This document shows positions 8,355 to 62,539 of a stretch of DNA of 64,000 nt, one piece after another. Positions within the stretch are counted from its first letter, which is position 1, and each line of letters starts with the position of its first letter. Below the pieces are notes generated by a model that saw only the letters and a list, made by a program, of their open reading frames with translations, was not told the origin of the DNA and made no database searches. Both the position numbers and the translations under genes were made by a program. The DNA comes from Mesostigma viride (lineage: Eukaryota > Streptophyta > Mesostigmatophyceae > Mesostigmatales > Mesostigmataceae), in assembly GCA_009746045.1 (NCBI GenBank), contig RPFO01000068.1:1-64000 (forward strand). Reading direction: 5' to 3'.

Positions 8355-8376
8355 TTTTCTCTGAACATGATATACT

Positions 8377-17626: not shown

Positions 17627-20600
17627 CTATAGCGAGGTCGCTACATCATGGCCAGCATATTCGGCGTCCTCCCGTTGCATCAGCATCTTGTCATGCGCCG
17701 AGTAGAGCGGCAGCGGCCAGAGCAGCCGGCTGGTCCCAAGCACCTGAGGAGACAGCGCAGCATGGGCGAAGCATGGGAATGGGGACAGCGCCCATAGTAA
17801 TATAGGGTCCATGAATGGGAGATCCGATAAACCAAACATCAGCGCCCATCAGGAGGCAAGAGACTGCAAGCGTGCCTTGCTGACCTCTAAATATGTTCAA
17901 GGAGGCCGATGCAAATACCCAGTCATGCAGGCACGGCCGGGCTGTGCCATGAGTGCCCAACTCACCCCACTCTAAACTGTCCATCCCACAACCATTCCAT
18001 ACAGACTGTGGTCCACAAAACAGAGCCCTTGCCTGGCCATTCACTGATTTAACAACATGCCTGCGTTGGGGGGATCGCATGGCACAAACTACATCTGCAT
18101 GGGTCCCTTGCCTCCCTGATCTAGACACAACCAGGGTGTGCCCACGTGCGCACATACCTACTGTCACCACACAACCCACGCGCCACGCATTGAAGTGACC
18201 GCATAGTTCCCAAAGAAACTGCTACCCATGGCCCACCACGCTGCCACACATGCGGCCCACCCTGCCGAAACACTCGGTGCTTGCCGTACCCGCTCCCCGT
18301 TCCGGAGCACGACGGCTTGCCACAACACCGCGTCTGCGTACGTGCGCGTGCTGTACCCCGACGCACAACCAGAGCGTGCCCATGTGCGCCTACTGGCTCC
18401 CATAACCTACTTGCATCCCCACCATGGCCCTTCTCTCTCCCTCGGTCGCCATCCACCGCGCCGCAACACTGCACTGGGTGCTCTATAAAACACCTGCTCC
18501 CACCTCGATCCTCGCAGTCTGAGCCGTACCTGCTCCACATTCTTGCGCCGCCCCAGGTCGCGTCGGCATCTACGTTCATGCACATATCCACGCCATTCCC
18601 ACGTTTGCGCCCACATTCGCCGTACCTGCTCCACGTTTTTGAGCAGCCCCTGGTCGTACTTCCAGGGTACCGATGGATCGTACTTCTTTTCGCACATCTG
18701 GGGACACGCGTGAGCGGGTGGGGACAAACGCGCCAGGTGGCAAGCACAAAAGTCCGGGATGGAAATGAGAACGAAATTCAGTCTATGCCGCAACTTTATT
18801 TTGCCAATGTAGGCGGACGCCAGGGGTGGCGGGTGGCAAGGGGAGGGATGTCGGGTGGGCCAAGGGGTTGCAACGTTGTTTTCAATGGGGATTGTTTGAG
18901 GGTGGGTCAAGCGATGGCCATACAGGAAACGAGAGAAAGAAAGAAAGGGTGCGATGGAAAAGAGGGTGGGCGGGGTGGGGGGGCTGACAACCCGGTGACC
19001 TGGGGTGGGGATAGACAGTCAAAGAAGGTCAGGTGTGCAGCACAAACGTAACCCATCCTGGGCAAACCTGGCCCTGCCTCTGTCGTGCTGGCAACCACAT
19101 AGTCTCAAAGACGGCAAGATTACCATGTTTGTTGCCAAACCACGGCAGACATATACACGTCGGCCGTTCGCCGCAGCGTTGCCCCTGACATACAACAAAA
19201 TTGATGATAATAGTGAAACGTAATGTCACATAAAGTGGTGTTGTCGCTATACATGATACTCTTTGCCTTGGTCACATAGCGGCTACGTCATAGTGATGTT
19301 GCCGCATGGCCCCCGCCATCACCTGCTCACACAGGTGGTTCTACCCACAGATGGCATACCCACCTGGATGGCTGCGTTGCCCCTCATCATCCATCCAGCA
19401 TCCGGCATTCGTCCGCTGCGCACCCACCACTTAATCAACCCTCTGTGAAATATTCACTCCGCAGGCCATCCTGTTCATGAACACAACGCCACCATTGCGC
19501 GTGCCCCATGCACAGCTGCCCGTGTGGATATCACCCCCCCTCTGGTTAGGGTATAGGGTCAAGGCTCACTCCACGCGGCACTGCCCACCTCGATGGTCGT
19601 CTTGTTCTTGAACACGAGCGAGCCGTGCATGACAAGAAAGCCCAGCAGTGAGAAGGAGAAGGCGATGTTCATGACTGGGGGGGGGGGGGGCAGGGGCGTG
19701 AGGTGTGAAAGGGCGGGCACACAACAGTCAAGAGGAAACTTAGCACAGACAAGGCCATGTTCATGGTAGGGGGTGGGGGGTGGGAGGGGAGAAAATGGGG
19801 GGTGGGCACACAGCAATAGGGAGCGAAATAACCAATGAAATGGCCATGTTGATGACTGGGGGTGGGGGTGCGAGAGAAGAATGTGGGGGTTGGGGGGAGG
19901 CAGTGGGCACACAGCAGTAGGGAGGGTAAGGGCAGAAGGCCACCAGATAATGACCAGGGGGGTGAGGCTGAGGGGTTTGTAGGCGCTGGCAGTCCACAGG
20001 GACGCGGGCGGTAAAGGCAGAAGAGCACAGCGGCCCATGCGTGTACTGAGCAAGCTACTGCTTTGCAAGGGTGGGAACGCCCAAGTTCATCATGGGGGCG
20101 TGGGCGTGGGTGTGGGTCGGGGTCGGGGCTGGGGTCGGGGTTGGGGTTGGGGTAGGGGTGGGCTCCGGGGGGGAAGGGGGTAGGGGTGGGTGGCGGTCGC
20201 CTGACACTGCTCTGGGGCCAGCTCCCAGGGCTCCGGATGCCAGACCGTGACTGCCAGTGCAAGACCGACCCAACCTCCTGCGCCCGGGCCCATGACTCAA
20301 CACTGGAGGTATCCATTCAACACCGGGACGATTCTATCGCTTCGCTTCGCAAGGCCAAGCGATACGGCCGCCCGGGTCCCTGACGGCGACAGCATGCGTG
20401 CACCCAAGCGATGCATGACAAGGATGCCACCTCGGGGTTGGGTACTTAGCACAGGTTGGGTACTTGGCAACGCTGACAAAGACATCGAGACTACAAGGCA
20501 GATTGATGGGCACCAAAGCACGCAACGACATGAAGGGAGTGCTGTAGGCGGGCACGCGCCAGAGCTGACTAATCACGGACACCACATCCACCGCTTGCGT

Positions 20601-23455
20601 GCGCTTCCAAACTGTTTAGGGCTAATCACCAAAGCTAGTGAACACGCCTCCCACTTTGTACGCGAGCACGCGCCGATGCTGACAAACACAGGCGCCACAT
20701 CGAAAGGACAGGCACATACCGAAACTGACGAAGACCGACGCCACGTCGGAGATCGGGTCCATCGCTCCGGGCTCTTGCCGGAAGAAGCGGAGGAAGAAGG
20801 GGAAGAGTGCGCACGTGGATACGAAGCAGGCGAGGAAGGTGTACACCTGCGGGCGACGGTGCAAGGGCGGGGGCGGTTATCATGGTTTTGTTGTTGTCAG
20901 CATTTGGCCAGAACACAGACCAGCGCAATCATGGGCGATTCGGCCATGCAAGCTGCCCCATGCATTAGAGACAAAAGGAAGGACGTGGCACCAAGTCACT
21001 TGATTGGGCAAATCGCTCGGAATGCAGCGCCTTGTAAGGTGGGTGGCACCTGCTGCCTGCTGGCAGCCCCTGCACCCCATGGGCTGACAGCACTTAACCC
21101 GTTGTACAGAGCCCATCACGCCTCCAATGGTGGCAATCCCAGCTCCAAGAACAGCCAGAAAAACTCCCCAGGCTATAGATTGATTCATAGCGATAGCTTC
21201 ATTCCTGGTGATGCATGCATACTAAACCGTTACCCCTGACCCACCAGGAGCAGAAAGGACGGTCTACGACGCGTGGATCGTGTATTATACCTGACACGCT
21301 TGCCAGCCACCAGAACATCAACCCACCAGGCATATATACTAAGCCATGCACGTTAAACCCACCAGGAAGAGCAGGAACAGGTGTTACCATGCATAGATGA
21401 TAAACCGTTCATGCTTACATGCTTGCCAACCACCGAAACTAAGCACACCAGGAAGATCAGGAAAGTCTTGTAGAAAGTAGAAACTTGTAGTAGAATTCAT
21501 ATCAAAGAGACATCCAGCGCAGGCCAGGCATTACTATATACTACAGTGACCATTATATAAAACAGATAGCCAGCGCAGGCCAGAAATCTGGAAGAATCCT
21601 GACCATGGTAGCTCGAGTATGCTGTTATCTTATCTGTGTTTGTCGAGTCATTCACGATGATGAAATTGAATGGAGGTGGATACGTGTAGCGGTGGAAAAT
21701 CAAAAGTATGGCTGGCTAATCATATGTCTTAATAACCATGAAAATATCTAAAAATATACGTAAACATATGTCTTACTATTTACGTAAACACATGTCATAC
21801 TTTCCCACACAGCAAAATATGGTGTTCTTCTTAGTCAGTTGCATCGTTTTTCCCGTCTTTGTTCTTATCGTGTCCATTTCATCACGACTCTTGTTGAACT
21901 CTTTGCATCCTTTGTTGGTCAAAGACTATGACTGAGACATTATGCTCCGTCAAGTTCGGTGTTTTTTGCAACGTCACCCACATCTGTTCGGTGCTGCCCC
22001 TTGGCACAAGCTCTACAAACAGGTCGTGGACCGGCTGGATCGCATAGTATCTCCGCACATCTGAACCCTGTGATGCCAGATCTCCTTTGCGGCCGTTCCG
22101 ACCTTGGCAGTGGATTTGTTGTCCACACCGTCGCGTCGTTGCAGCAACACAATGTTTTCTGGCATACGCGGGCTTTTGGTTCCCGCCGCACATTTGAAAG
22201 TGCTGTCCTCCGGCTTTTTGCCTTTGCACCGTGTGCAGTTCTTGGACGTTTGGAATCATGGCATGGCTGACCTAATGACTGACTAGCTAGACCTTTTCAG
22301 TGGTTTTCCATTTGCGGGTATTTCCTCGTAAATGGTGGGAGAGCGATCGCAGCAATGGTGCTCACCACTAGACACTCCCGGCCAGTTAGGCTCGAAACAC
22401 ACGCCCTGATCAAGCCAGCTGTTTCCGGCCCCACCATCTAGGTCATCTAGTCGCTCTACATGATTTCAATGCACAAGGCTACACATTTCCATCACCATTC
22501 ATCTTCATCATCCTGAACGACTCGAAAAGGCGGACAAGATAACGGCAGGCTCGAGCTACCATGGTCCGGATTCTCCCAATTTCTGGCCTGCGCTGGTTAT
22601 CTCCTTGATATGTCTCGTTGATATGTCAAACGTACATCTAAACATATATCCAAAAATAAAACCCACCAGAAATAGCAGGAAAAACTTGTAGTTGCGCGCG
22701 CCGACGCAGTTGACCACCCACACGCAGTGGTGGTCCATTTTCAGCACGCAGCGGCTGCAGATCGAACAGTGGTGGCAGCGGTCCGGCTTGTACACGTCGC
22801 ACTTGCGGCAGTAACGATGGCGGGGCCGGTCGCCCGACGAAGTGGGACCCTGGACCAGCACCTGGGAGCTCTCTGCCAGGCCGTTCCCACGCGTGGTCTC
22901 TAGAGACAGCCTGTCCAGGCTGTTGCCGTGGGCGTTTTCTAACGATAGCCGATCCGAGACAAAGACTTTTGTGGCTGCTCCCCCAGGGTTCAGGAACGCA
23001 TGGCCGCTCTCGAGGTCTTGAAGCGCCGCGGGCTTCCAGGCATGTGACACGCCCCCAGGGTCAGTGAACACGCACGAGAAGTAGCACCATAGCAGCATGC
23101 CGACCTGAACAGACGCGCCAGAGAGGTAAACAGGGATAAGGTGAATGGCGGGAACTAGAACGGCGAGAAGGGGCAATTGTTCCTTTGATGGCGCAAAGCC
23201 GACGGCGAGGGGGAAACACGAATCATAGACATATGTAAACGTACGCATGGCACTCACCAGGATATGAAATATTGCAAGCACCGCACACGCGCCGCGGCTT
23301 CCCTCTCCTCCTTGCATCATAGCCGGACCATAGCACTCCACAATCACCGCGTAGTAGGTTATCCCCACGATGGAAAGCACGACCGCTATCATCAACGACC
23401 CGAGTATTTTCATCCATGAACAGTACTTGAAGAAATTCCATGATGTTGCCGACAT
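17627..23455 (-). CDS. DHHC-type protein S-acyltransferase, 6 exons, 345 aa
   Basis: Exons (minus): 23455-23258, 23104-22667, 20846-20720, 19674-19589, 18697-18626, 17743-17627. All junctions are GT-AG and phases close to 346 codons. The protein has two N-terminal membrane segments, then the DPGGVS motif, the Cys-rich domain ([20 protein letters not shown]) and the catalytic DHHC in [14 protein letters not shown]. Exon 3 supplies the third membrane helix and exon 4 the fourth with the TTxE motif (NKTTIE). Exon 5 gives the WKYDQG...NVEQ segment and exon 6 the [14 protein letters not shown] tail typical of plant PATs. It transfers palmitate to protein cysteines on endomembranes or plasma membrane. 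Intron 1 is 153 bases and in frame, so retention would not cause a stop. Intron 2 holds LINE fragments. The start is ATG at 23455; an upstream in-frame GTG is not used. Confidence 0.82.
21506..21720 (+). mobile_element. Old degenerate LINE 3'-end copy in DHHC intron 2
   Basis: From CCAGCGCAGGCCAGAAAT at about 21,552 the sequence matches, with many changes, the LINE end at 25,250-25,400 in the same orientation. A shorter piece of the same boundary (ATATCAAAGAGACATCCAGC) lies just before it at 21,505. This copy is more diverged than the inverted pair. Confidence 0.55.
21801..22611 (-). mobile_element. LINE 3'-end copy, inverted arm A, in DHHC intron 2
   Basis: This 811-bp stretch is the reverse complement of 25239-26060 with scattered differences. 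On the minus strand it starts within the LINE coding end (TATCAAGGAGATAACCAGCG) and runs through the 3' region to CACACAGCAAAATATGG. It is a retrotransposon-derived repeat inside a host intron and not part of the DHHC protein, although the DHHC frame stays open into it for a few dozen codons. Confidence 0.75.
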
Positions 23456-24195
23456 CGTCACGTGACTGCCACGGCGAACCACCACGGGAGACCCCCGGGG
23501 TCTATAGCTGATGCGCTTGAGCAGGTCTACAAAACAATTCCCTTGTCGCCTGAATCCTAAAACACCAACAGCGGAAAACGCCTTAAAAATCGCACAACAA
23601 ACGTGCTATCCCCCCCCGCCCCCCGGACTGCGTCGCATTAGACGTTTTATCATTCTCGCTTTTTCAAATCAGCGCCTAGTCGACACAGCCCAATTAGCTC
23701 ATGGCGGTCATGTGCACGAGATTGCTGTAAGTACACCAATATGTATTCTAGAATTAACAATCACTCAGGCAAATTTCAAGGCGACCCTATACCACGCACC
23801 CCGAGGCCTGAGCCATGCTCGTTCCAAGTACTATTTTGTCTGCTTTGCGTCAGCGGGACATGCCGAAATATGTTATTAGCCGAGAACAGCCGCTCATTTT
23901 TGTCGAGAACCCGCAACAACCGCTATCTCAAGAGGGTATGTCTTTGAATGCCCACGTGCGACCATCCACGTGCGGCAAGGTCACGCAAGGGACTGTACAG
24001 GCGAGGGCATGTCCACTGTCCAGTCGTTGCTGGCCCGCTGTGTTGTTGACTGGTTGACCCTAACGTAAAAGATGCTGCAGTAGCCGGGCGTCGTGAAAGG
24101 TTCACGTCTGCTGCCACCATTGTGAGCAGCAATCCACTTGCGGCACGTGTAACATGGGCTGAGCTGGCTGTCCAGAAATATGGTACACGTTATCA
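23456..24195. other. 5' flank of the DHHC gene
   Basis: No gene is recognised. There is a C-rich run at about 23,611-23,627. This is the presumed promoter side of the DHHC gene. Confidence 0.4.
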
Positions 24196-24396: not shown

Positions 24397-24566
24397 GTAG
24401 AGTTTCAACGGGCAAGTTGCAAACACGCACGTTACTTGATACATAGAGCCGCTGCTGCGTCCGCACTACTGTAGTAGTAGTTGTTGTTGTTGTTGTGTCC
24501 CACGCCTACTGTAGTACTGTACTCTGCGCACACGGGGAACCATAAACCAGCACGACAAGATCTTGC

Positions 24567-26893: not shown

Positions 26894-27675
26894 ATGCCGC
26901 CTAAGCCAAAGTCCCCCAAGAAGGGGGCCAAGAAAGAGAAGGAGGCCCCTACAGGAGATGAAAATGGCGTATCTGCGGAGGAGCTTGCCTCCAAGATTAC
27001 CGCCCTTGAAAAAGAAAAGACGAAGGAAGAGGAATACCGAAACTACATGCAGCTTGAAAGAGTGCGTATAGGCCCAGGACGCCTTAATTTTCATGACATG
27101 GTGGTAGCGATATGACACTGATCGAAGCGTTTTGCTAGATCCACAGGGCCTAGATTAGCCATGCTGGTCGGACCAAGTTTTTCCATGGAGCGCTGTAGCC
27201 GCGCACGCTTGGGCGAGCGTTATTTACGGCTGCTACATGGCGTTACTCGATTGTCACTTGTCGTGATTGCGCAGGACAAAATAAATGCCTTCTGGGAGAT
27301 TACGAAGAAGGAGCTGGAGGACAAGAAGGCGGAGCTGCGCAACAAGGATCGGGAGATGGAGGAGATGGAGGAGCGCCACCAGGTGGAAATTAAGGTGTAC
27401 AAACAGAAGGTGAAGCACCTGCTATATGAACACCAGAACAACATTTCCACGCTCAAAGCCGACGGGGAGATGGCGCTGAAGCTTCAGCAAGACGAGTTCA
27501 TCAAGCGGGAAAACGAATTGATGTAAGTCGTTGTTCTGGGAAATCCAACTGGACAAGTATGCTATTCCAAGTAACCATCTCGCACCCACCCACACACCCA
27601 CACACCCACACACCCACACACCCACACACCCACCCACACACCCACACACCCACCCACACACACACACACACCCAC

Positions 27676-27763
<88 letters not shown>

Positions 27764-30700
27764 ACCCACCCACTCCCTGACTGTGCTCACCCACCCTGTT
27801 CACATGTCTGTATATTTCCCCATGCACCCATCATTTCCTGCCCCTAAGGCTGTTGCCCTGGTTTCTTCCCCCTCCTTTTCCCGTTTCCTCCTTGCTGTCG
27901 GCCTCCCTTCTTGCCTTCTCCAGCCCAGTTCTGCCATTTTTTCCCCGCTGCCTCTCGCCTCCTCGCCTCCTCGCCTCCTCGCCTGCGCCCTCCTGTCCCC
28001 CCTCTCCCTCTGCAATCCCCTTCCCTTCCACCACCCCTTCGCCTGTACCCTTCCCCTTCTCTCTCCCCTTGCATGCTTGCTTGGTTCCTTTCCTTGTTCC
28101 TCCTCCTCCTCCCCTCTCCTCGTCCATGCCACCCTTTCCCGGTTGTCCGTGCCAGCGTGTCCCCTCGCCCTCACCCCATGATGTGTCCAGCCCTCGCCGT
28201 GGCCCACGCGCTGACCCTCCCACATCCCCTTGTCACCACATCCCATGATCAACGTGATCCTCCCACATCCCCTTGTCAAGACGATCCACCGACGCCCCCT
28301 TCCCCCCATCAGCGTGCCCGTTATCCCCCCCATCAAGGGTAGCAAGCTTCCGCTTTCCCGGCCCTACCCATTCCTACATCTGGCTGTGGCCACTAATCTG
28401 TTGACACCTCCACCTCTCTCCCCCAGCCCCCCCCTACCTCACCCTCGCCACACCCACCTCGTTCCCAAGGCCGGCCGGACCACCATCCGTCTATCTAGGT
28501 CGGCGCGTCTGGCTGCGGAAAGCATGCCAGTGGTCCTGTGGTCTAACCGAAACCCGAACGCTCTGGCCAGAGGTCCTGTGGTCGAGCCTGGAATTCAGTG
28601 GAGGTGGTTTTTGTAATGTGGAATCCCTGACCCCAGCAAATGTAAACGCAGTTTTATACCGTTTCCTTTCTCGAGGTGTATGCTGGTCAGTGTTTCAATG
28701 CGTGGCGTTTGCTCGCCAAATGTGGCAGTGTGGCGCCAGTTTTAGGAAATTGTGGCGTTATCACCCCCAAATGACAGCTCCCAATACGGCGCAAAGTGGC
28801 GGTGCGGTACTACTTGGCAAATGCTGGTCGCCACATAATGGCTGTGCTGAATCCAATGCTAGTACCTTGTGACGCCGCATGTGGCCGTGTCAACGTAATT
28901 TCCAGCCGGCTCTCCACTGCAAGTCCCCCTAGTATATAGTAGGTAGTAGTAGTATAGTAGCCTCCACCAGTCACCAATGGCCCCGTGCCCCGCGCCTGTC
29001 CTACAGTGAATCAGCTGTTGGCCTTCGACTCGCGTGCGGTAGTCGCCTGCTGACTGGCCAGTAAGCGCCGCGCCACGCCGTGGTATAGGTGCTTGAAGAT
29101 TCTGCGCTCGAAACTCACTTGGAAGGCCGCGGGCCGCCCGCCAGTGACAGGTGACAGGTTTAGAGGGAGCATTGTGTGACCAGGGAAGCCATTTGACTCG
29201 CCCGCCTGCCAGTCGCCACGCGTGTCCGTGCCGAGCACAAGTTTTGTTGTCTAAAAGCCACACATTGGCCGAGCCAAATCTTGTTTCCGTAGTTGAATAT
29301 GCCACGTGGCGCTCCGTCCAAAAACCTGAATCGAATCAGTGATGCTGGTCACGTACACCTCCATTCTTAGTTTTCCCCTCCCTCCCTCCCTCCCCCACCC
29401 TTCCTGCTGCTCTGTGCTTGTTTTGCCAGCAAGGACAAGCAGTCGCTGAAGTGCATTTACACATGTCCCATGTCCCCCGTCCCCCCTCCCCCGTCCCCCG
29501 TCCCCCCTCCCCCGTCCCCTTTCCCTTACCCCAGCAAGGACAAGCGGTCGCTTCAGCAAGGATAACTGTTTGTTTAACCACCTGTTACCACAATGATGTT
29601 CCCTGCTTGTGCTGCACGTGTCTTTGGTTTGCCAGCAAGGACAAGCGGTCGCTGAAGCAGGAGCTGAAGGAGATGGAGCTGGCACACGAGGATGTGGTCC
29701 GCACGCTTAAGCTGGTGAGGAAGGGGGAGGGTTGGGAGGAGGGTTGATGTGAAGGCAGAAGAATGTATATGAGAGCGTGATGAATGAGCATGGTTCACCC
29801 CGCGGATGATGAATGAGTGTGTCGTGTGTGGGAGAGGGGAGTGTGGGCACGAGGACGTGGTCCGTACGCTCCAGCTGGTGAGGAGGGGGAGGGGCCAGGG
29901 GATGCATGTCTTGGGTGGGGGAAGGCGGGGATGAGAATGAGGACATGGTCCGCACGCTGAAGCAAGGTGAGCAAGGGATACAATCTTGTGGGGGGAAATC
30001 CGTGTGTGTGTATGTGTGCAACGGAAGGTCTTCTCATGCTGTCGCTGCGTGAGTCAAAGATGTGATGCTGCATCATTAACTGAATATGAAATGATTGTTT
30101 GGTTATGTTGAAGCTTGCTTCCCTGTCCCCGGCAGCCTGCCACCGGACATCGTGTGGTTTCGCCTGGGGCCAGGGAAGCAAGGCTCTACCCTCTCCTTTG
30201 CCCCCCCTCTGCCATGCCACGGCTCCGCACGGCAGCCATGGGTTGATATTGGACCCCTGTCCGCAAGGCAACCATGGTTTGGACTCCACTATCACAGCGT
30301 TGCGGACCGTCCTGCGCATGTGCGTTTTTTTCTCATGTGTCATCTGAACCGCTTACAACTTTCCCTGCTGGCCACCTTGCCTATGTGGCATCTTGCCTGC
30401 TGTCGCCGCAAATGCTGCCCTTGTGTCGCATTGCCCCGCTTGCCCCCTCGCAGGAGCATGCCAAGGAGATCACCAAGCTGCGCCAGGAGTTTGAGCTGAA
30501 CGCCAAGGAGCTGCAGCATAAGTACGAGAAGAAGGTGGGTGCTGGGATGATGGCATGCCCAAGCGAGCGCATCACAGCCCCGTGGTGGTACCCGCACCCC
30601 CACCCACCCGCCCACCCACCCACCCACCCACCCACCCACCCACCCACCCGCCCACCCACCCACCCACCCACCCACCCACCCACCCACCCACCCACCCACC

Positions 30701-33700: not shown

Positions 33701-33998
33701 TCTCCTTGGTATCAGCACGTGTTCCTGTGCTAGCTCCCAAAACATTTTCCCACTCCAACCTCCTTTGAGGGGGTACCTTGCCAAGTGGTAGCATGTGTTC
33801 CCCGCTAACGCCCTTGCCTAAGACTCCATGTGCGTGTGTGTCCCCGCGTCCCCCCCTTTTCCCCAGGCGCACAACGACCTCATCCGCGTGTACGAGAACA
33901 AGCTGGCCGAGTTCGGTGTCCCGGTGGAGGAGCTCGGCTTCCGCCCGCTGCTCACCAATGCGACCACGGGGCCCGCGGGGCTGGTCGTCGGCGCGTGA
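26894..33998 (+). CDS. DRC4: Dynein regulatory complex subunit 4 (GAS8/PF2), 7 exons, 472 aa
   Basis: Exons: 26894-27061, 27275-27522, 29636-29714, 30454-30534, 31457-31786, 32125-32505, 33867-33998. All introns are GT-AG and phases close to 472 residues plus stop, the size of Chlamydomonas PF2. The N-terminus is Lys/Pro-rich ([17 protein letters not shown]). Nearly all the rest is coiled coil. Exons 5-7 carry the GAS8 domain with conserved blocks such as [31 protein letters not shown] and the terminal [15 protein letters not shown]. The protein is part of the nexin link between outer doublet microtubules and is needed for regulated dynein motility, so this organism builds motile cilia. Introns 2, 4 and 6 contain long tandem repeats and several junctions have degraded copies nearby. 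Confidence 0.93.
27583..27776 (+). repeat. (CA)n / (CACCCA)n microsatellite in DRC4 intron 2
   Basis: About 190 bases of CACACCCA units grading into pure (CA)n. A pyrimidine-rich stretch (about 27,850-28,480) follows with no gene in it. Confidence 0.9.
28860..29200 (-). mobile_element. Repeat fragment in DRC4 intron 2
   Basis: On the minus strand the segment AATGGCTTCCCTGGTC and about 60 surrounding bases are related to 26,285-26,345. Both translate to a short WLPWS-NAP block, suggesting remnants of one transposon-derived coding region. Ends are not resolved. Confidence 0.35.
30593..30943 (+). repeat. (CCCA)n and (CCCG)n microsatellite in DRC4 intron 4
   Basis: A 350-base run of CCCA units with an internal block of CCCG (about 30,706-30,775). 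Frames stay open only because of the repeat; they are not genes. Confidence 0.92.
32870..33310 (+). repeat. 85-bp minisatellite in DRC4 intron 6
   Basis: About five near-identical 85-bp units with the shared phrase GTGAGGTATTCAAGGGTGG and a GT-rich tail. The phrase resembles the exon 6 donor edge (AGGTCTCCAAGGTGAG), several isolated copies of which lie on both sides of the array. Confidence 0.85.
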
Positions 33999-48500: not shown

Positions 48501-51500
48501 GTGAAACGGGGGGTCATGCGACAACAAGGGAGGTGGTAAAAGGGGGTCATGCGACAACAAGGGAGGTCGTGAAACGGGGGGTCATGCGACAACAAGGGAG
48601 GTGGTAAAAGGGGGGTCATGCGACAACAAGGGAGGTCGTGAAACGGGGGGTCATGCGACAACAAGGGAGGTCGTGAAAGGGGGGTCATGCGACAACAAGG
48701 GAGGTCGTGAAACGGGGGTTATGCGACAACAAGGGAGGTGGTAAGAGGGGGGTCATGCGACAACAAGGGAGGTCGTGAAAGGGGGGTCATGCGACAACAA
48801 GGGAGGTCGTGAAAGGGGGGGCATGCGACAACAAGGGAGGTCGTACAAGGGGGGTCATGCGACAACAAGGGAGGTCGTGAAAGGGGGGTCATGCGACAAC
48901 AAGGGAGGTCGTGAAAGGGGGGTCATGCGACAACAAGGGAGGTGGTACAAGGGGGGTCATGCGACAACAAGGGAGGTCGTGAAACGGGGGTCATGCGACA
49001 ACAAGGGAGGTCGTGAAAGGGGGGTCATGCGACAACAAGGGAGGTCGTGAAACGGGGGTCATGCGACAACAAGGGAGGTCGTGAAACGGGGGTCATGCGA
49101 CAACAAGGGAGGTCGTGAAAGGGGGGTCATGCGACAACAAGGGAGGTCGTGAAAGGGGGGTCATGCGACAACAAGGGAGGTCGTGAAACGGGGGTCATGC
49201 GACAACAAGGGAGGTCGTGAAAGGGGGGTCATGCGACAACATATGTTAGCAGAGGGTGTATTGCGGGAGAGGGTGAAGTGTGGTATCCCATTTTGGGGGT
49301 GCAGTGCATTCGCAATGTCCGCAAACATGTGGGGCTGAAACAGAGGGTGCGAAAATGGAGAAGAGGACGCCCGTGGGCGCATGGGTTCTTGCAACACAGG
49401 CGCACAGTCGCACAGAGAGGCACACCAGCAACTCTGTAACTATACAAAACACAGGAGAGATGTAACGGACAGGCCCCTCACATGCGGCACAGGAACCGTT
49501 GCGTCTGGCTACGTAGGCGAGGTCATGGGCGACACGTGGCCATGTATGAAAAGCACAAGCACCAACAGAAGAGCTGCAGAAGAAGGGTATCCGGTACCAC
49601 CGTGCTGACTCGCAATACAACACATCATGTTAGTGTGACGTCTCTTTCTTAGGATATTGGCTTTCTTTTGCGTGTCTGTACCTGTGAAGCATGCATGCAC
49701 TCATGCTAAACACGGTATAGCGTAGTAGCTGCTGTAACTAGCAAACAAATGTCTAGTCCCGTGGAGAAATTTTCTGTGATACACCAAACATTAGGAGGAG
49801 CACTATGACCAGGAATAGACTTGGGCTAGCCTATTCTATCATCAAAATAAGAATACCACGAAAACTTTCGCAGCTATGGCGTCTACACGGGGCCATCCAT
49901 TCGCGCTGCTCGCAGCAGCCACAGACGGAGATGCGCACATCAAGGGTAGAGGCTGCTGTAGAGACGGCCCCTGGCAGAAGCCCTAGCGTCGCAGGGTCCC
50001 AGCACCCTGTGCGCAAACTGGCTGGGCACTCACACAAATTCCACGACGCACTTTTATAAATACGCACAGATCGATCTAGAAGAAGCACAGCTTCATCACA
50101 GCTTCATCACTTAGCTGACACCAAGAGATAATGATCACAAGTCCAGCACAGAAGCTTGGCTGGTGACGTTGGGCGGTAGCTAACAAAAGGGAGGGAGCAC
50201 ATTACAGGAAAAGCACGCCTCACCCAGGAAGCTCTTCCGGAGCGCCCTCTGCAGCACGCCCTCCCCCACCTCCTTGTCCCGCTCGGCAAAGAGGGTCGTC
50301 AGCCGCGTGATGGTATCCAACAGGATCGGGGCGCCTGCACCCTGCCAGGGTGAGTAGACAAGAACAAGTGTTTGAACAGCCGCAAAGATCCCAGTGCAAA
50401 CACGACAGAAGGGGTATAAGACAGCCAGTCGATGCCTGCGTTTCTTGTGAATTCAAAGTAGGCAGCCGATACTACCCCCGACATGAACACAGCACCCATT
50501 AGCGTACAACCACCCGACACGAACACAGCACCCACTAGCGTACAACCACCCGACATGAACACAGCACCCACTAGCGTACAACCACCCGACATGAACACAG
50601 CACCCACTAGCGTACAACCACCCGACACGAACACAGCAGCCACTAGCGTACAACCACCCGACATGAACACAGCACCCACTAGTGTACAACCACCCGACAC
50701 GAACACAGCACCCACTAGCGTACAACCACCCGACACGAACACAGCACCCACTAGCGTACAACCACCCGACATGAACACAGCACCCACTAGCGTACAACCA
50801 CCCGACACGAACACAGCACCCACTAGCGTACAACCACCCGACACGAACACAGCACCCACTAGCGTACAACCACCCGACATGAACACAGCACCCACTAGCG
50901 TACAACCACCCGACATGAACACAGCACCCACTAGCGTACAACCACCCGACATGAACACAGCACCCACTAGCGTACAACCACCCGACACAGCACCCACTAG
51001 CGTACAACCACCCGACACGAACACAGCACCCACTAGCGTACAACCACCCGACATGAACACAGCACCCACTAGCGTACAACCACCCGACATGAACCCAGCA
51101 GCCACTAGCGTACAACCACCCGACATGAACACAGCACCCACTAGCGTACAACCACCCGACACGAACACAGCACCCACTAGCGTACAACCACCCGACACAG
51201 CACCCACTAGCGTACAACCACCCGACATGAACACAGCAGCCACTAGTATACAACCACCCGACATGAACACAGCACCCACTAGCGTACAACCACCCGACAT
51301 GAACACAGCACCCACTAGTGTACAACCACCCGACATGAACACAGCACCCACTAGTGTACAACCACCCGACATGAACACAGCAGCCACTAGCGTACAACCA
51401 CCCGACATGAACACAGCAGCACCACTAGTATACAACCACCCGACACGAACACAGCACCCACTAGCGTACAACCACCCGACATGAACACAGCACCCACTAG

Positions 51501-54500
51501 CGTACAACCACCCGACATGAACACAGCACCCACTAGCGTACAACCACCCGACATGAACACAGCACCCACTAGTGTACAACCACCCGACATGAACACAGCG
51601 CCCACTAGCGTACAACCACCCGACATGAACACAGCACCCACTAGCGTACAACCACCCGACACGAACACAGCACCCACTAGCGTACAACCACCCGACACGA
51701 ACCCAGCACCCACTAGCGTACAACCACCCGACAGCACCCACTAGCGTACAACCACCCGACATGAACACAGCAGCCACTAGCGTACAACCACCCGACACGA
51801 ACACAGCACCCACTAGCGTACAACCACCCGACATGAACACAGCACCCACTAGCGTACAACCACCCGACATGAACACAGCACCCACTAGCGTACAACCACC
51901 CGACACGAACACAGCACCCACTAGCGTACAACCACCCGACACGAACACAGCACCCACTAGCGTACAACCACCCGACACGAACACAGCAGCCACTAGCGTA
52001 CAACCACCCGACACGAACACAGCACCCACTAGCGTACAACCACCCGACACGAACCCAGCACCCACTAGCGTACAACCACCCGACAGCACCCACTAGCGTA
52101 CAACCACCCGACATGAACACAGCAGCCACTAGCGTACAACCACCCGACACGAACACAGCACCCACTAGCGTACAACCACCCGACACGAACACAGCACCCA
52201 CTAGCGTACAACCACCCGACATGAACACAGCACCCACTAGCGTACAACCACCCGACACGAACACAGCACCCACTAGCGTACAACCACCCGACACGAACAC
52301 AGCACCCACTAGCGTACAACCACCCGACACGAACACAGCAGCCACTAGCGTACAACCACCCGACATGAACACAGCACCCACTAGCGTACAACCACCCGAC
52401 ATGAACACAGCACCCACTAGCGTACAACCACCCGACATGAACACAGCACCCACTAGCGTACAACCACCCGACACAGCACCCACTAGCGTACAACCACCCG
52501 ACATGAACACAGCACCCACTAGCGTACAACCACCCGACATGAACACAGCACCCACTAGCGTACAACCACCCGACACAGCACCCACTAGCGTACAACCACC
52601 CGACATGAACACAGCACCCACTAGCGTACAACCACCCGACATGAACACAGCACCCACTAGCGTACAACCACCCGACATGAACACAGCACCCATTAGCGTA
52701 CAACCACCCGACAGCACCCACTAGCGTACAACCACCCGACATGAACACAGCACCCACTAGCGTACAACCACCCGACATGAACACAGCACCCACTAGCGTA
52801 CAACCACCCGACATGAACACAGCACCCACTAGCGTACAACCACCCGACATGAACACAGCACCCACTAGAGTACAACCACCCGACATGAACACAGCACCCA
52901 CTAGTGTACAACCACCCGACATGAACACAGCACCCACTAGCGTACAACCACCCGACATGAACACAGCACCCACTAGCGTACAACCACCCGACATGAACAC
53001 AGCACCCACTAGTGTACAACCACCCGACAGCACCCACTAGCGTACAACCACCCGACATGAACACAGCACCCACTAGCGTACAACCACCCGACATGAACAC
53101 AGCACCCACTAGTGTACAACCACCCGACATGAACACAGCACCCACTAGCGTACAACCACCCGACACGAACACAGCAGCCACTAGCGTACAACCACCCGAC
53201 ATGAACACAGCACCCACTAGCGTACAACCACCCGACATGAACACAGCACCCACTAGCGTACAACCACCCGACATGAACACAGCACCCACTAGCGTACAAC
53301 CACCCGACACAGCACCCACTAGCGTACAACCACCCGACATGAACACAGCACCCACTAGCGTACAACCACCCGACACGAACACAGCACCCACTAGCGTACA
53401 ACCACCCGCCATGAACACAGCACCCACTAGCGTACAACCACCCGACATGAACACAGCACCCACTAGCGTACAACCACCCGACATGAACACAGCAGCCACT
53501 AGCGTACAACCACCCGACATGAACACAGCACCCACTAGCGTACAACCACCCGACATGAACACAGCACCCACTAGCGTACAACCACCCGACATGAACACAG
53601 CACCCACTAGCGTACAACCACCCGACATGAACACAGCACCCATTAGCGTACAACCACCCGACATGAACACAGCACCCACTAGCGTACAACCACCCGACAC
53701 AGCACCCACTAGCGTACAACCACCCGACACGAACACAGCACCCACTAGCGTACAACCACCCGACATGAACACAGCACCCACTAGCGTACAACCACCCGAC
53801 ATGAACACAGCAGCCACTAGCGTACAACCACCCGACATGAACACAGCACCCACTAGCGTACAACCACCCGACACGAACACAGCACCCACTAGCGTACAAC
53901 CACCCGACATGAACACAGCAGCAGCGTACTAGTGCACAACCACCATGACAAACATTTACCCCTGCCGAGTTGGATCCGACCTCTTCATCATCTAACAGCC
54001 ACACCACGCGGTTGAGGTATACTACTGTACATGCAGTGGTGCTTTACTGCTGTCAGGGGAAAAGGCCATACCTCTGCCGAGTTGGACCCGACCTCCTCGT
54101 GGTCAAACAGGCACACCATGCGGCACGACTCCTCGTCATCCCCCCCTGGGATGGCACCATCTCCCCCATTTGCGCCCGAGGTGGTGTCCACTAGCGCCCG
54201 CAACGCCGCGTACGAGCTGGCGAGGTTGTCGAGCCGGCCCGAGAAGATGAACTCCTGGAACGCACCCCCCAGGGCGCTGGGCTGCACGTCGCACACGTTG
54301 AGCTCAAAGTCGACGATGTCCTCGGGCGCGCAGTCGAGCTCGTGCGCCAGCAGCTGGTTGTGATGGGGTGGGTGGGTGGGCGGGCAGCATTTATTATTGG
54401 GGGGGCGATGGACCACGTTTGGTGTGGTTGGTGAGATCACATCTGGTTGTGCGAGGGTGGGGGTGGCGGGGACAAGGTTTAGTGGGCGGGTGGGTGGGTG

Positions 54501-57500
54501 GGTGGGGGGGGGTGGGGGGGGGGGGCGGGAAGGGGGGGCGACGCCGTGGTGTGTGTATAAAAAATCTCAAGTGGTTGCAAGCATGTTTGGTGGGCGAGCA
54601 TCAGAAAACTGGTGGAAGGATAGAAGGACAGGAAATGGGGCAAGCAAACTGGCCCAGGTCTTGTGGCCAGCAGCCCAGCTGGAGGGATGAGCGTTTGTTT
54701 GGATCGCGGCTCATCTCGTCTGCCCTTGCATGCGCAACAGCAAGCCAGTGAGCGCAGCTCTCCTCCAGCACACAAGAGAAATGAAGGGGATGGACCAGTA
54801 GGAGTGCAGGCAAGTGCCGAGGAGATATGTGGCACAGCATGGTGACTGCCAGCAGGCAGGATCCCACCGCGCGGTTGAACCCTAAACAGATCCGGTCATG
54901 GTGGGGGGGCGTCCAGAGAACTTGTTCGCTGTTGGGGTGCAAATGTCCGGACATTGTCCATGCACTTGCTTCCATCCTACGTTGATATATTCGCACACAG
55001 CCTATCGCACGTAGCCTATCTCACATAACCATTGATAGATTCGCACATTAGGTTCGCACATGGCCTGTGATCCGGGGGCCCATGTGGTGCCCTTCGTTCC
55101 AGTCTCACTCGATCCGGCGCTCCGCCGTCCTTGATCGCGATTGGCCCTGGGTGCTCTGGGCACCCACCCTGCAGGGAGCCTGGAGATGCCCCCTTCCATG
55201 CAAGGCCACTTTCTCAGAATGACTTTCGCAAATCCACCACATGTTATTAGGCAAGGGCTACCTGGCCAGGGCTCACCGTGAGCAGCACCATACTGGCCTC
55301 CCCACACTAAGTTACGCCGGTACCAGGCCGTCACTCACCCCCACGGTGAGCAGCATGCAGTGCTCGTTCACACTCACTCGATACATCCTGAACAGGCCAA
55401 CCCCACGGCGCGCCTCCCACCTTGAGCAGTACTGGGTGGTGCGGCGGTTTCTTGCTCCTGGCCCCCTTCTTCTTGGGAGGTGCCTCCGCTCCTGCGCCCC
55501 CAGCCGTCCCCGCAGCACCCCCCTGCGCCGCTGCTGGCGAAATGCTGGGCTCCGCCCCCTGGTCCAGTTCCTCCTCGATCAGCGTGGCCAGCACGGGCGC
55601 GAGGTGGGTCTCCATGTTGGGCTTAAAGCCGGCCTCGTTGACCGTGCTGCATTTGGGTTTACATCGGTGTATTGGTGGTTTGGAGCAGGAACATATTTGC
55701 AAGGATGTTTTTGGTGTAGCCGGTGGGGTGGGTTAAGGGACCCGGAAAAAGCCGGCCTCGTCGACCGCGCAGACAGTCCACGAAGGTGCCGTCGACAGCA
55801 GGAGAAGGGGGAGGTTGGGGGGGCGGGGCAGTTGGGTTTGGATTTGGATGGGGGCAGGGAGAAGGAGGTATGTATGTGTGTCTTAGAGTGGAGGTTTTTT
55901 GGGAGACAAATGTACAGGTCAAGGGAAAGGACCAAGGTGCATCGAGGGTGGGGCATGGTCGGGGGGGGGAGATGCGTATTGAGGGGGGGGGCCATGTACA
56001 CACCGGTGGCGGGCAGGACAAAACACGCATGAATCACGCTGCCTGTCATGCTGACCGTGACAGGCTGATGCTACCTACCCGCCATTACAAACCACGCGGG
56101 CGCTGGTTGATGCCTAACGAGCTTCCCTATCCAGACGTGACACTACCATAACAAACAACTCGTTAGTAGGGCATAGTGCGTCAACCATCTGGGTAGCTGC
56201 CAAAAGCATGGAGAGGCCCAGGCTGTTCCCGATGGAGATGCCCAGCACCGCGGCACAGCCGCGGCAAACAACAGATCGCTAGCCACAATTCGTGGCCACA
56301 TTTATAGTAAACAAAAGCATAGCCAGCAGCAGCCAACCGCTGTTGACTCATCGGCCCAGGTGGCACACGCCTACCACCACTACCAGCAAGGGCATGCACA
56401 CGAGTGGGCGTGCAATCTCCACCAGCTGAGTCATGCAACACACTAGTGTACCAGGTCGTACATACAAGCCGCACACGCACCGGTCCAGGTGGATAGCCAG
56501 TGAGGGGATGCGCATGACCGGGCGCGCGATCTTGACCAGTCGGTGGCTCCACTGCTGGCCCCCACCGCTGGCGCCCCCCTGCTTGACCAGCACGCGCCCC
56601 GCCACGCTTAGGTCCCGGTCGAACCAGGTGTACCACAGCCCGCCGCCGTACGTCTGCACGCCCACGCCGATGTAGTCGCCCTGATGATCGGACCGGTGGC
56701 GCGCAAACAGGCATCGAGACAGTGCATTGAGGCTACATGGCGGGACCCTTTGGGGCCCCTTTCGGGCATCACGCGGCATGCGGCACGCGGCCTCGTAAGG
56801 CAACCGCTTCGTTGGCTTGCGATAATGCTGGGCATCGGCACGCATGCTAGCGTGATGGTAGCCTCCGTAGGTGGAAGGTGAACCCGCATCAAGGCTGCAG
56901 AAAGTGCTGGAATCCGTCCATAAAGTGGCAGACTTGAGCAAGTGGCAGAATATATTTGGGCTTCTCAGACCCCGCTGAAGCGCTCCAGAAGTATTCGACA
57001 GTTTATATACTTATCTTATCTGGATTTAATTTATATACTTATCTTATCTGGATTTAATTTATATACTTATCTCATCTGGACTTTCAAATTTGTTTGGACG
57101 TCGAAGACCCCGCTGAACAGCTTTATAAGTAAGCCATAAGGTATTCCGTACAAAAGCTGGGAGTTTTCGCACCCACCGGGTTCTGTGTCGGCCGCCTCTA
57201 CTGCACAGCCACACCACTACACAACCCTGGTATGGGACGAGAGCCATGCGAAGAGTTGGCACGGTCAGTCCCCCTTGAGCAAGAAAAGGGCATGTCACCA
57301 TGACCTTGACCAACAGGCTGCGTGGTGACACGGCCACACAAACTGGAGCTTACCTTTGAATTGGGAGGAGGCGGGCTTGTGCCTCTCACCCGCCCACCTT
57401 TCTGTACGGCGGATGAACGACCCATTTGTGGTGCCGCCGTACCTTGACGAGGGAGGAGACAGGCTTGAGCTTGGGGCACGGGCTGTCAGTGTGGGCGGCG

Positions 57501-60500
57501 ATGATGTTGAAACCGTTGCCCGCTTTGAACCTGCGCACCGGACAAGCGGTCAGCGAGACAGACAAGGGTCATGGAGTGAGGTCAGGGATGAAAGGAAGGC
57601 AGAGGGGGGTGGCAGGGTGCGCGCAAGGCCAGGGATGCGTGGGGGGGGCGTTGGCCCCCTGGAACGCGAGTCACCGCATGACGAGTGGGGAGTATCGTTC
57701 GTTGTTTGCATCTCATAAGTTTGTGTGTTCAACAGCATTTGGGTTTTTGTTTTACTTTCCATTTTTTTCCCCGCCATCCATAGCCAATGTGTTTCCATGA
57801 TTTTCACAATTTGCCTGAGAGTGCTGCTTGCTAAAGCAAACATTTTTCACTGGACTGAGCCATGTTTGTCACCTAATGAATGCATTGATGCTGCTCCTGT
57901 GCAATCATCGTCTCTACTGGAACCCCCAAGGCATTCCAAAGGCTCGCTTCCGCCTGAGTGCAAACACACACATAAGCGTGGCATGCATGTTGCGATGGGA
58001 TGAAGCAGCCACCCATTATGCATCCGGAACTAGTATTGCCACTGGAGGGGTCCACCCCCTGCCAAGTGCGAGTACAGCGATGGTAGACGCGTTAGGGTGG
58101 GACGAGCGAGCGAGGGATGCGTGAACACACAAGCGAGGGAGCGCGGATAGGGAGCAGCGAGCGAGGGATGCGTGAACACACGAGCGAGGGAGCGCGGATA
58201 GGGAACAGCGAGCGAGGGATGCGTGAACACACAAGCGAGGGAGCGCGGATAGGGAACAGCGAAATGAGGTTGCATTAGATCGTGCTGCTAAGGCGCCCAC
58301 CTGCTGCCCAGCGCGAGCGCGGACAGGGTTCCGCGTTTCGAGGGACAAGACAGCCCCACGCAAGCGGTCACGCGCGCAGTTTGGCCGGCGTCCAACTATG
58401 ACGATAACCTGTATAACCATATATAGCGTTCCATTACTCGCCTGCTGCCGAGTGCGAACGCGACAATGGTGGACATGTTGCGCGTGAAGAAGTACTTGCC
58501 GCCGGCACGCACGTCCCAGGGCGCCGACTCGGATAGCGGCTGGTAGCCGGCACGCAGCAGCAGCTGCTTGGCCTCGTCTGTTGCGGGTGCGGTGATAGCA
58601 TTGAGGGCAACCGCGGCAGAGGGCGACGAGGGTGGGCATGTGGTGAGACATGATATGATGTGGGTGAGCTAGAGGGTATGATAAAGTGACCGTAACACTA
58701 GCACGCCCACGCCCTCGTGCACCAATGAGCTATGTATGCCATGGTGTACGGTCGCCTGCTACCGCAGGTTGTCGCCTGTACATATGAGTCCCATTCCTAC
58801 CTCTGGCCTTGGGACGATGGAGTGGCCTCAGACCAATCCCCTCACCCAATCCCCTCACACCATCCCCTCACCGCACCACCTTGCATCGCATCACGTCACC
58901 ACATCACCTGTTCTTGCGCTTCATGAGGTATTCTTGCGCCGGCACTAATTGCCAGACGCTCCCATGCAGTGAGGGATTTAGTTGAGCTGGGGCTTGCTTT
59001 ACAATGCCTGGGGCTCGGCTTCCCATGAACGAAGGAAGAAAGGAAGGAGAGGGCATGAGAGAAGGCCATGAGACAAGGCCAATTCCTTCCGAATTATAAG
59101 GAATAAAGTCCTGCCCCTTGCTTGTTGTGTATCAATTAGGGATGGCAGGTCAACGAATGGAACCCCATGACTGCCTCAAGAAGAGGGAGGGAGGGAGGGA
59201 GGGAGGGAGGGAGGGAGGAGGGAGGGAGGGAGGGAGGGAGGGAGGAGGGAGGGAGGGAGGGAGGGAGGGAGGGAGGGAGGGAGGGAGGGAGGGAGGGAGG
59301 GAGGGAGGAGGGGGAGGGAGGGAGGGAGGGAGGGAGGGAGGGAGGGAGGGAGGGAGGAGGGAGGGGAGGGAGGGAGGGGGAGGGAGGGAGGGAGGGGGAG
59401 GGAGGGAGGAGGGAGGGAGGGAGGGAGGAGGGGGAGGGAGGGGAGGGAGGGAGGGAGGGAGGGAGGGAGGGAGGGAGGAGGAGGGAGGGAGGGAGGGAGG
59501 GAGGGAGGGAGGGAGGGAGGGAGGGAGGGAGGGAGGGAGGAGGGAGGGAGGGAGGGAGGGGGAGGGAGGGAGGGAGGGAGGGAGGGAGGGAGGAGGGAGG
59601 AGGGAGGGAGGGAGGGAGGGAGGGAGGGAGGAGGGAGGGAGGAGGGAGGGAGGGAGGGAGGGAGGAGGAGGGAGGGAGGAGGGAGGGAGGGAGGGAGGGA
59701 GGGAGGGAGGGAGGGAGGGAGGGAGGGAGGGAGGGAGGGAGGGAGGGAGGGAGGGAGGAGGAGGGAGGGAGGGAGGGAGGAGGGAGGGAGGGAGGGAGGG
59801 AGGGAGGGAGGAGGGAGGGAGGGAGGAGGGAGGGAGGGAGGGAGGGAGGGAGGGAGGGAGGGAGGGAGGGAGGAGGGAGGGAGGAGGGAGGGAGGGAGGG
59901 AGGGAGGAGGGAGGAGGGAGGGAGGGAGGGAGGGAGGGAGGGAGGGAGGGAGGAGGGAGGGAGGGAGGGAGGGAGGGAGGGAGGGAGAGGAGGGAGGAGG
60001 GAGGGAGGGAGGGAGGGAGGGAGGAGGGAGGGAGGGAGGGAGGGAGGAGGGAGGGAGGGAGGGAGGGAGGGAGGGAGGAGGGAGGGAGGAGGAGGGAGGG
60101 AGGGAGGGAGGGAGGAGGGAGGGAGGGAGGGAGGAGGAGGGAGGGAGGGAGGGAGGGAGGGAGGAGGGAGGGAGGGAGGGAGGGAGGGAGGGAGGGAGGG
60201 AGGAGGAGGGAGGGAGGGAGGGAGGAGGGAGGGAGGGAGGGAGGGAGGGAGGAGGGAGGGAGGGAGGGAGGGAGGAGGGAGGGAGGAGGGAGGGAGGGAG
60301 GGAGGGAGGGAGGGAGGGAGGGAGGGAGGGAGGGAGGGAGGGAGGGAGGGAGGGAGGGAGGGAGGGAGGGAGGGAGGGAGGAGGAGGGAGGGAGGGAGGG
60401 AGGGAGGGAGGGAGGGAGGGAGGGAGGGAGGGAGGGAGGGAGGGAGGGAGGGAGGGAGGGAGGGAGGGAGGGAGGAGGGAGGGAGGGAGGGAGGGAGGGA

Positions 60501-60975
60501 GGGAGGGAGGGAGGGAGGGAGGGAGGGAGGGAGGGAGGGAGAAATGGCATATGTTACGATGGGGCATGGGGAAGCAGCATTTGACACTATTGGCTGCTGT
60601 GTGCTCCACTATTGGACTGCTACAGTAGCTTCAACATAGAGGGTAGGTGACCAGCGTGCCTGTGGCGTGGAAGGGTGTCCAGGCCGCGTTCAGAAAGTCG
60701 ACCAGATCCGTCACCAAGGGAGGCACCGGACGGCGGCGACCACTGGACTTGGCTGCAGCCTGCGGGGCCACAGGATAGGACACCGCGCCACGAGCTCCGT
60801 CGGGAAGTGAGAAAGGCTCAATAAACAGGGAAACCCCACTTAAACAGGTAAAAGTTTGGCGAATGCAACAGTCTTGCCACACAGTGCCCGCCTTGCAACT
60901 GAATCCTAATTGAAGAAATACAAGAAGGCACCCTTCGGTAGGCTCTTCGAAAAGCACGCAGGGGCGCTGTCTCAT
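45532..60975 (-). CDS. DNPEP: Aspartyl aminopeptidase (M18 family), about 10 exons over 15 kb
   Basis: Exons (minus): 60975?-60660, 58577-58442, 57530-57443, 56680-56481, 55646-55421, 54353-54072, 50341-50224, 47471-47290, 46313-46201, 45637-45532; internal phases all close. Landmarks in order: [47 protein letters not shown] (zinc-binding His), [22 protein letters not shown] with ligand Asp (exon 6), [11 protein letters not shown] (catalytic Glu and ligand Glu), [10 protein letters not shown] (ligand His), [16 protein letters not shown] and [11 protein letters not shown]. This cytosolic dodecameric metallopeptidase removes N-terminal Asp/Glu. Introns 1 and 2 appear to use GC donors (CAG|GC). 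The 5' end is uncertain: the ATG at 60975 gives 588 aa, long for the family (about 480-530), and a splice acceptor at 60761 could mean another upstream exon. Exon 5 has an insertion of about 30 low-complexity Ala/Gly/Lys residues. Confidence 0.88.
47515..49240 (+). repeat. 34-bp minisatellite in aminopeptidase intron 7
   Basis: About 50 units of 32-34 bases based on GGGAGGTCGTGAAAGGGG plus GTCATGCGACAACAA, with G-run length and GTG/GTA/GTAC variation. On the gene strand the unit is pyrimidine-rich and resembles the tract directly before the exon 8 acceptor (ACTCCCCTTTCAC). Confidence 0.93.
50487..53925 (+). repeat. 36-bp minisatellite in aminopeptidase intron 6
   Basis: About 95 units of 36 bases (ACCACCCGACATGAACACAG then CACCCACTAGCGTACA), with ACG/ATG and CAC/CAG variants and occasional short units lacking ATGAA or more. 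The unit is a multiple of three, so long frames stay open on both strands (12-residue repeats). They are by-products: the array lies wholly within an intron. Confidence 0.95.
59185..60541 (+). repeat. 1.35-kb (GGGA)n / (GGA)n purine tract in aminopeptidase intron 1
   Basis: Almost pure GGGA units broken by single GGA steps. The purine strand is opposite the transcript, which would contain a (UCCC)n pyrimidine tract. It could form G-quadruplex or triplex structures. No stop codons occur in several frames because of the composition; none is a gene. Confidence 0.95.
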
Positions 60976-62533: not shown

Positions 62534-62539
62534 CTAATA

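Follow-up and report, generated by a model that had tools for sequence, protein, structure and literature searches.

In the early-branching streptophyte alga Mesostigma viride, the edges of exons are found again, as degraded copies in the same orientation, inside the introns that adjoin them. These copies were noticed in a stretch of 64,000 nucleotides (assembly GCA_009746045.1, contig RPFO01000068.1, positions 1 to 64,000), referred to here as the window, and were followed up in its spliced genes and in a wider sample of the same genome. The follow-up confirmed that the copies are real. At a score of at least 16, a copy is present in the own intron of 46 of 168 exon edges, namely 26 of 84 donors and 20 of 84 acceptors. 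It is proposed, with a probability of about 0.85, that recurrent short tandem duplications take place inside introns, and that those which cross a splice junction leave decaying copies of the exon edge behind.

Gene models and sampled loci

The source genome consists of 439.9 Mb in 2243 contigs. For the NIES-296 assembly, the published description gives 441.8 Mb, 2363 scaffolds and a mean intron of 1141.9 bp (PMC6947507). Four spliced genes of the window were modelled by hand. DHHC, GT29 and M18 were located via Pfam scans, and the identity of DRC4 was derived from homologous proteins and solved structures. The DHHC model agrees in every letter with the jgi/Mesvir1 protein P0162 (match 100% over 100%). 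The GT29 model is letter-identical to the tail of P0121 (98% over 100%), and DRC4, from exon 2 onward, to the tail of P0001 (99% over 89%). In all, 14 window junctions (five in DHHC, four in GT29 and five in DRC4) are backed by these independently annotated proteins; the M18 junctions and DRC4 intron 1 lie outside this set and are our own reading. The near-consecutive Mesvir1 identifiers 25051, 25053 and 25054 suggest the same gene order in the independent annotation.

The wider sample comprises 32 loci chosen around protein-kinase matches and is hence non-random: L001-L008 of about 3.7 kb each, and 24 stretches of 10 kb. Usable introns came from 24 of the 32 loci, giving 64 introns of at least 90 bp, to which the window adds 20, for a total of 168 edges. 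Genes outside the window were predicted by a self-trained model. On the window, which was part of its own training set, this predictor recovered 35 of 40 junction edges and missed or misplaced five.

In several analyses, one GT29 acceptor was placed 24 nt too far downstream and the last GT29 intron was absent. This applies to the 38-edge shuffle test, the codon-position and distance counts, and the interior-probe, simulation, splice-dinucleotide, intergenic, looser-array and near-decoy analyses.

Exon edges recur in their own introns

Inside the window, each edge was represented by a probe of 35 exon and 15 intron nt, which was compared with its own intron and with 40 dinucleotide shuffles. 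For 15 of 38 edges, 0/40 shuffles reached or exceeded the score of the own intron, although for one of the 15, the DHHC intron 4 donor (score 14), the reverse-complement control scored higher (15). Once the models had been corrected and the probes lengthened, a score of at least 15 was reached by 32 copies at 17 of 40 edges, and several of these copies, at score 15-16, are marginal. The initial annotation had counted at least 15 affected borders with one to six copies each. The first figure holds at this score, some marginal cases included, and falls to 13/40 with a shorter probe at a score of at least 16; the second is reduced to one to four. The same shorter-probe count outside the window is 33/128. 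Copies were found in 19 of 28 loci when every window gene is taken as one locus. It had also been remarked that an intronless helicase in the window has no copies, which is true and yet uninformative for a gene without introns.

The controls are close to empty. Reverse-complemented introns gave 0/168 edges at a score of at least 16, and probes from the middle of exons gave 0/120. The comparison with length-matched introns of other genes, which the initial annotation had proposed, gave 3/810. Probes made of exon only (score of at least 14) found copies for 39/168 edges on the correct side of the exon, and for 0/95 on the opposite side. The direction originally described is thus borne out: donor-side copies lie downstream and acceptor-side copies upstream.

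Could chance similarity, low complexity or an assembly error account for such matches? The window is rich in simple repeats, a few matches are marginal at score 15-16, and in a first pass over 118 edges, merely reversed introns still gave 2 matches against 29 in the real ones. The four controls above speak against chance. Assembly error is countered by the divergence of most copies (mean exon-part identity of 0.83 in those that reach the junction) and by independently annotated proteins, which join the same exons. The probability of this explanation is considered negligible.

Tandem units and their spacing

Two cases outside the window display the duplicated unit clearly. In L023 (3178-3395), a perfect 101-bp tandem duplication lies across the donor and includes the last 34 exon nt and the first 67 intron nt; an older, degenerate third unit follows the perfect pair. 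In L015 (6517-6714, minus strand, detected by Tandem Repeats Finder, TRF), a 106-bp unit across the acceptor consists of intron and 35 nt from the start of the following exon, with 81% matches over its full length, the intron half being aligned as well. These units support the earlier suggestion that introns grow and decoy splice sites arise through tandem duplication. Within the window, the sequence of the last GT29 intron shows the exon edge together with two further units of the same tandem kind. Two in-frame exon-like units of 24 nt lie in this intron at 35615-35733, preceded by AG and followed by GT.

The distance from the junction to the nearest copy is 46-176 nt in 40 of 46 edges, with a median of 110, and in several introns additional copies are found near multiples of this distance. 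Repeats away from the junctions have comparable offsets. Among 75 distinct interior offsets, obtained from 38 of 74 introns, 26 are of 67-116 bp and 39 of 19-57 bp; they overlap the range of the edge distances and add the shorter class.

Exon sequence that is directly repeated at introns is also a hallmark of introner-type insertions, in which a shared element is inserted at many introns. Under such a scheme, or under reverse splicing, the exon-edge repeats would be target-site duplications. However, no shared element was seen, and introns of other genes matched only 3/810 edges. The side on which the copies lie fits tandem duplication, as do several regular spacings and the whole exon-plus-intron units in the two clear cases. 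This origin is therefore held to be highly improbable.

Are the duplications anchored at splice junctions?

The initial annotation had described the duplication as anchored at splice junctions. A mutational process of this kind, started for example by R-loops or spliceosome-linked breaks, would agree with the observation that local copies are almost twice as frequent for exon edges as for interior probes (25.0% versus 14.0% per intron, in 66 introns). When pooled, the counts are 33/156 edges and 262/1825 interior probes, against 13/1825 for a reversed-target null. It would also agree with the first 40 intron bases beyond +7, where copies are fewer (6/75 and 3/55). Nevertheless, pairs of exon and copy remain visible for longer, since only one partner decays while the exon side is conserved. 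The observed ratio of interior to edge is 0.56 (95% 0.37-0.85), and simulated detectability with uniform ages is 0.57. Interiors thus carry local copies at roughly the expected rate once exon conservation is counted. Furthermore, the similarity drops beyond about +7 of the intron, as the original is unconstrained from there on, and this is the point where its conservation ends.

The count of TRF arrays is less prone to the bias from exon conservation. In strict introns (87 introns, 67,586 bp), 2 of 17 arrays cross a junction and include 5 or more exon nt, where 3.9 are expected under uniform placement (P(>=2) 0.94). For arrays with a period of at least 50, the numbers are 2/10 and 2.4. In these small numbers, anchoring at junctions is neither needed nor seen, and that part of the original description is not supported. 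We consider an anchored process improbable, though the least so among the alternatives. A looser assignment of the arrays placed 25 in introns, seven at junctions (six splice junctions and the DRC4 stop codon), two in exons and 14 in intergenic DNA. Taken together, these results show that conservation of the exon is by itself enough to give an ordinary mutational process the look of junction anchoring.

Local copies were found for 15.0% of intron probes and 4.9% of intergenic probes. According to the genome report, the repeat content is 66.02% for the assembly as a whole and 30.1% for intron space (PMC6947507). Intergenic DNA is probably richer in transposons, so no linkage to transcription is claimed from this difference.

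The copies decay like neutral DNA

In 74 copies, the mismatch rates at the three codon positions are 0.186, 0.173 and 0.227. The copies thus change freely at every position, without coding constraint, and the slight rise at the third position fits synonymous change in the exon. An early impression of a strong third-position bias, gained from single alignments, was not upheld by this count. Among copies extending as far as the junction (another 12 donor and 9 acceptor copies end short of it and were left out), the splice dinucleotide is kept in 15/25 donor copies (GT or GC) and 11/18 acceptor copies (AG), where the neutral expectation, taken as identity squared, is 0.70. No selection that keeps or destroys decoy sites was detected in these 25 donor and 18 acceptor copies. 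The M18 donor at 58442 is itself a GC donor (GCGAGT), and two of three copies of this donor edge have GT instead. At the 14 junctions backed by annotated proteins, the exon-proximal splice sites are the ones that these proteins use.

It may be argued that the copies are functional, as alternative exons, decoys or regulatory splice sites under selection. Indeed, 7/25 donor and 7/18 acceptor decoys are still strong, scoring no more than 1 bit below the real site, and the last GT29 intron has its two in-frame units. On the other hand, mismatches are spread nearly evenly over codon positions, splice dinucleotides survive about as often as expected for neutral sequence, and the annotated GT29 protein leaves out both 24-nt units. 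A functional role is accordingly thought very unlikely.

A proposed model of recurrent tandem duplication

In the proposed model, recurrent short tandem duplications would arise throughout the intron, most of them with a unit of about 20-57 or 67-150 bp. Whenever a unit straddles a splice junction, it would carry along the exon edge and the splice site. The copy would always land inside the intron, downstream of the donor or upstream of the acceptor, so that use of the exon-proximal site would leave the coding sequence unchanged. The copies would then decay neutrally, and would stay visible for longer at exon edges, where selection keeps the exon and splice-site partner. The tandem exon-plus-intron units, their direction, their multiple copies, the unconstrained decay and, in a small sample, TRF arrays without junction preference are all observed. 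The event that makes a unit may be the fill-in and joining of staggered nicks, or an unequal exchange in an existing array. Introns would have been lengthened over time by such duplications, and the copies are presumably rarely spliced.

Several points weigh against this model. An interior 40-nt probe can fall within either unit of a duplication of about 100 bp, and a hand calculation that allows for this puts the ratio expected without anchoring near 0.9 and not 0.57. With the observed ratio of 0.56, this allows edges to be enriched by a factor of up to about 1.6. The test of array placement in strict introns comprised only 17 arrays, and ‘recent’ here means detectable by TRF, down to about 80% matches. 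With the looser assignment, 6/31 arrays are at splice junctions, where about six are expected (by hand). The gene models outside the window are computational predictions by our own predictor, which recovers 35/40 window edges. Lastly, pure neutrality does not predict a shortage of edge units shorter than 70 nt. Among nearest edge copies (up to 180 nt), 3/40 lie within 70 nt against 29% expected (binomial P 0.0009); this expectation comes from interior offsets and simulated detectability. The simulation did not reproduce two restrictions of the edge search, its low-complexity filter and its minimum of 10 exon nt, and the offsets are not independent events.

The shortage is tentative and no more than a lead; selection that removes competing splice sites close to the real one would account for it. 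A broader proposal is that local tandem duplication is a main engine of intron growth in this lineage, and that splice-site competition lets junction copies survive only beyond about 70 nt from the real site; we regard this as possible but doubtful. If true, thousands of natural decoy splice sites, graded in strength and distance, would provide a natural test of site choice by the spliceosome. The shortage, if genome-wide, would measure the minimum spacing of two equal splice sites. The duplications would also be a simple source for both intron growth and decoy splice sites.

Coordinates and other features of the window

The genes and the copies of their exon edges are listed in Table 1.

Table 1. 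Modelled genes of the window, exon-edge copies at a score of at least 15, and one intronic array.
Feature	Position	Strand	Remarks
DHHC S-acyltransferase gene, 6 exons	17627-23455: 23258-23455, 22667-23104, 20720-20846, 19589-19674, 18626-18697, 17627-17743	-	equals P0162
DRC4/GAS8 gene, 7 exons	26894-33998: 26894-27061, 27275-27522, 29636-29714, 30454-30534, 31457-31786, 32125-32505, 33867-33998	+	exon 2 onward equals tail of P0001
GT29 sialyltransferase-like gene, 5' end open	34913-39051: 38356-39051, 36764-36961, 36297-36518, 35808-36028, 34913-35042	-	equals tail of P0121
M18 aminopeptidase, part of gene	54072-60759: 60660-60759, 58442-58577, 57443-57530, 56481-56680, 55421-55646, 54072-54353	-	our own reading of junctions
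DHHC exon 2, donor-edge copy	21436-21473	-	score 20
DHHC exon 2, donor-edge copy	21355-21377	-	score 19
DHHC exon 3, donor-edge copy	20666-20702	-	score 17
DHHC exon 3, donor-edge copy	20261-20298	-	score 15; marginal
DHHC exon 4, acceptor-edge copy	19834-19868	-	score 23
DHHC exon 4, acceptor-edge copy	19748-19780	-	score 21
DHHC exon 4, donor-edge copy	19455-19498	-	score 15; marginal; not above reverse-complement control in shuffle test
DHHC exon 5, donor-edge copy	18523-18560	-	score 28; family D18
DHHC exon 5, donor-edge copy	18283-18309	-	score 17
DRC4 exon 3, acceptor-edge copy	29418-29451	+	score 30, identity 0.94; family D16
DRC4 exon 3, acceptor-edge copy	29531-29562	+	score 25; family D16
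DRC4 exon 3, donor-edge copy	29831-29891	+	score 37; family D14
DRC4 exon 3, donor-edge copy	29939-29977	+	score 26; family D14
DRC4 exon 5, donor-edge copy	31965-31999	+	score 15; marginal; 0/40 shuffles
DRC4 exon 6, donor-edge copy	32535-32558	+	score 20
DRC4 exon 6, donor-edge copy	32761-32792	+	score 17
DRC4 exon 6, donor-edge copy	33400-33423	+	score 16; marginal
DRC4 exon 6, donor-edge copy	33457-33478	+	score 16; marginal
85-bp tandem array, entirely within DRC4 intron 6	32855-33310	+	5.4 copies, 99% matches
GT29 first modelled exon, donor-edge copy	38227-38268	-	score 22
GT29 second modelled exon, acceptor-edge copy	37073-37100	-	score 20
GT29 second modelled exon, acceptor-edge copy	37200-37238	-	score 19
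GT29 second modelled exon, acceptor-edge copy	36980-37009	-	score 16; marginal
GT29 second modelled exon, acceptor-edge match	38209-38271	-	score 16; marginal; overlaps donor-edge copy 38227-38268
GT29 third modelled exon, acceptor-edge copy	36650-36704	-	score 21
GT29 fourth modelled exon, donor-edge copy	35713-35733	-	score 15; tandem array unit 1 (interior offset 93)
GT29 fourth modelled exon, donor-edge copy	35615-35640	-	score 15; unit 2
M18 second modelled exon, donor-edge copy	58300-58325	-	score 17
M18 second modelled exon, donor-edge copy	57943-58004	-	score 18
M18 second modelled exon, donor-edge copy	58059-58105	-	score 16; marginal
M18 third modelled exon, donor-edge copy	57351-57382	-	score 17
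M18 fourth modelled exon, donor-edge copy	56383-56416	-	score 16; marginal
M18 fifth modelled exon, acceptor-edge copy	55748-55770	-	score 19

In DHHC intron 2 (21500-22640), an apparent insertion with inverted termini was seen by eye between the array of donor-edge copies and the real donor, and the duplications in this intron may predate it. An end related to this insertion is present at 37959-37991 (family D19). Three long arrays are also found in the window: a 34-bp unit x51 (47507-49241), a GAGG-type array of 1.36 kb (59183-60541), and a 36-bp unit x98 (50470-53920) that begins the region just downstream of one of the modelled exons of M18.

At one end of the window, positions 365-13639 are occupied by an intronless block of open reading frames (ORFs) on both strands, which seems to resemble a polinton-like or virophage-like element. 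Six of its ORFs gave no Pfam match and one weak PHROGs match of unknown function. Beside it lies a reverse transcriptase fragment (14586-16245; RVT_1, E 8e-11 for the ORF 14586-15089). At the other end (62071-63680), the ORF 62925-63680 has the look of part of a long interspersed nuclear element (LINE) and no Pfam match. Elsewhere in the genome, the stretch G000:C1107:651917-1310254 has 22 kinase-domain matches on one contig, mostly as single open frames of about 1040-1265 aa, three being shorter; it may be a virus-like insertion or an expanded family.

Comparison with known systems

The initial annotation knew of no described process of this kind, but amphioxus ‘mirages’ and a case from potato were already in print. 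Mirages are minisatellite-like tandem units that span exon-intron boundaries, both 5' and 3'. They are known in Adh3, the globins BflGb6 and BflGb9, and TnC, and repeats in PGBD5 have been likened to them. The units measure 150-160 bp in BflGb6, 157 in BflGb9, 10-72 in Adh3, and 60 and 108 in PGBD5. Splice signals often lie within the copies, and splicing is reported to be normal (PMC3087553, PMC3902484). Similarly, the Mesostigma units of 101 and 106 bp span exon-intron boundaries, both ends of exons are affected, and junction-reaching copies carry splice signals. The differences are that Mesostigma is a green alga and not a cephalochordate, that 46/168 sampled edges are affected against a handful of amphioxus genes, and that most of its copies are old and degraded. 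Length instability between haplotypes or cells is a further trait of mirages, and the present analysis covers one assembly.

In the RNA-dependent RNA polymerase (RdRp) gene of potato, a single tandem duplication across an intron-exon boundary created a new intron (PMC4974935). Here too, duplications cross boundaries in streptophyte genes; in Mesostigma, however, existing introns would lengthen. In Drosophila, intron gain through the duplication of proto-splice sites within exons has been described (PMC2891723). Tandem duplication with splice motifs is common to both, whereas the Mesostigma unit straddles an existing junction instead of lying within the exon.

Short tandem duplications are also a common class of insertion in plants, attributed to the repair of staggered nicks or protruding ends, with rice insertions of 10-1000 bp (PMC7407515, PMC5730883). 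The short tandem units of Mesostigma resemble these, and may share their origin in repair. Vaughn and Bennetzen 2014 and Schiml 2016 are reportedly the sources for tandem duplications from staggered nicks or protruding ends.

No paper on exon-edge copies in Mesostigma or any other alga stood among those listed in searches of the open PMC library. With Mesostigma, duplications that span boundaries, found in print for a few amphioxus genes and one potato gene, now extend to a streptophyte alga of early divergence, and about one in four of the exon edges sampled there is affected. Boundary-spanning tandem duplication itself was already known; as far as these searches reach, what is new is the lineage, the frequency and, tentatively, the shortage of near decoys.

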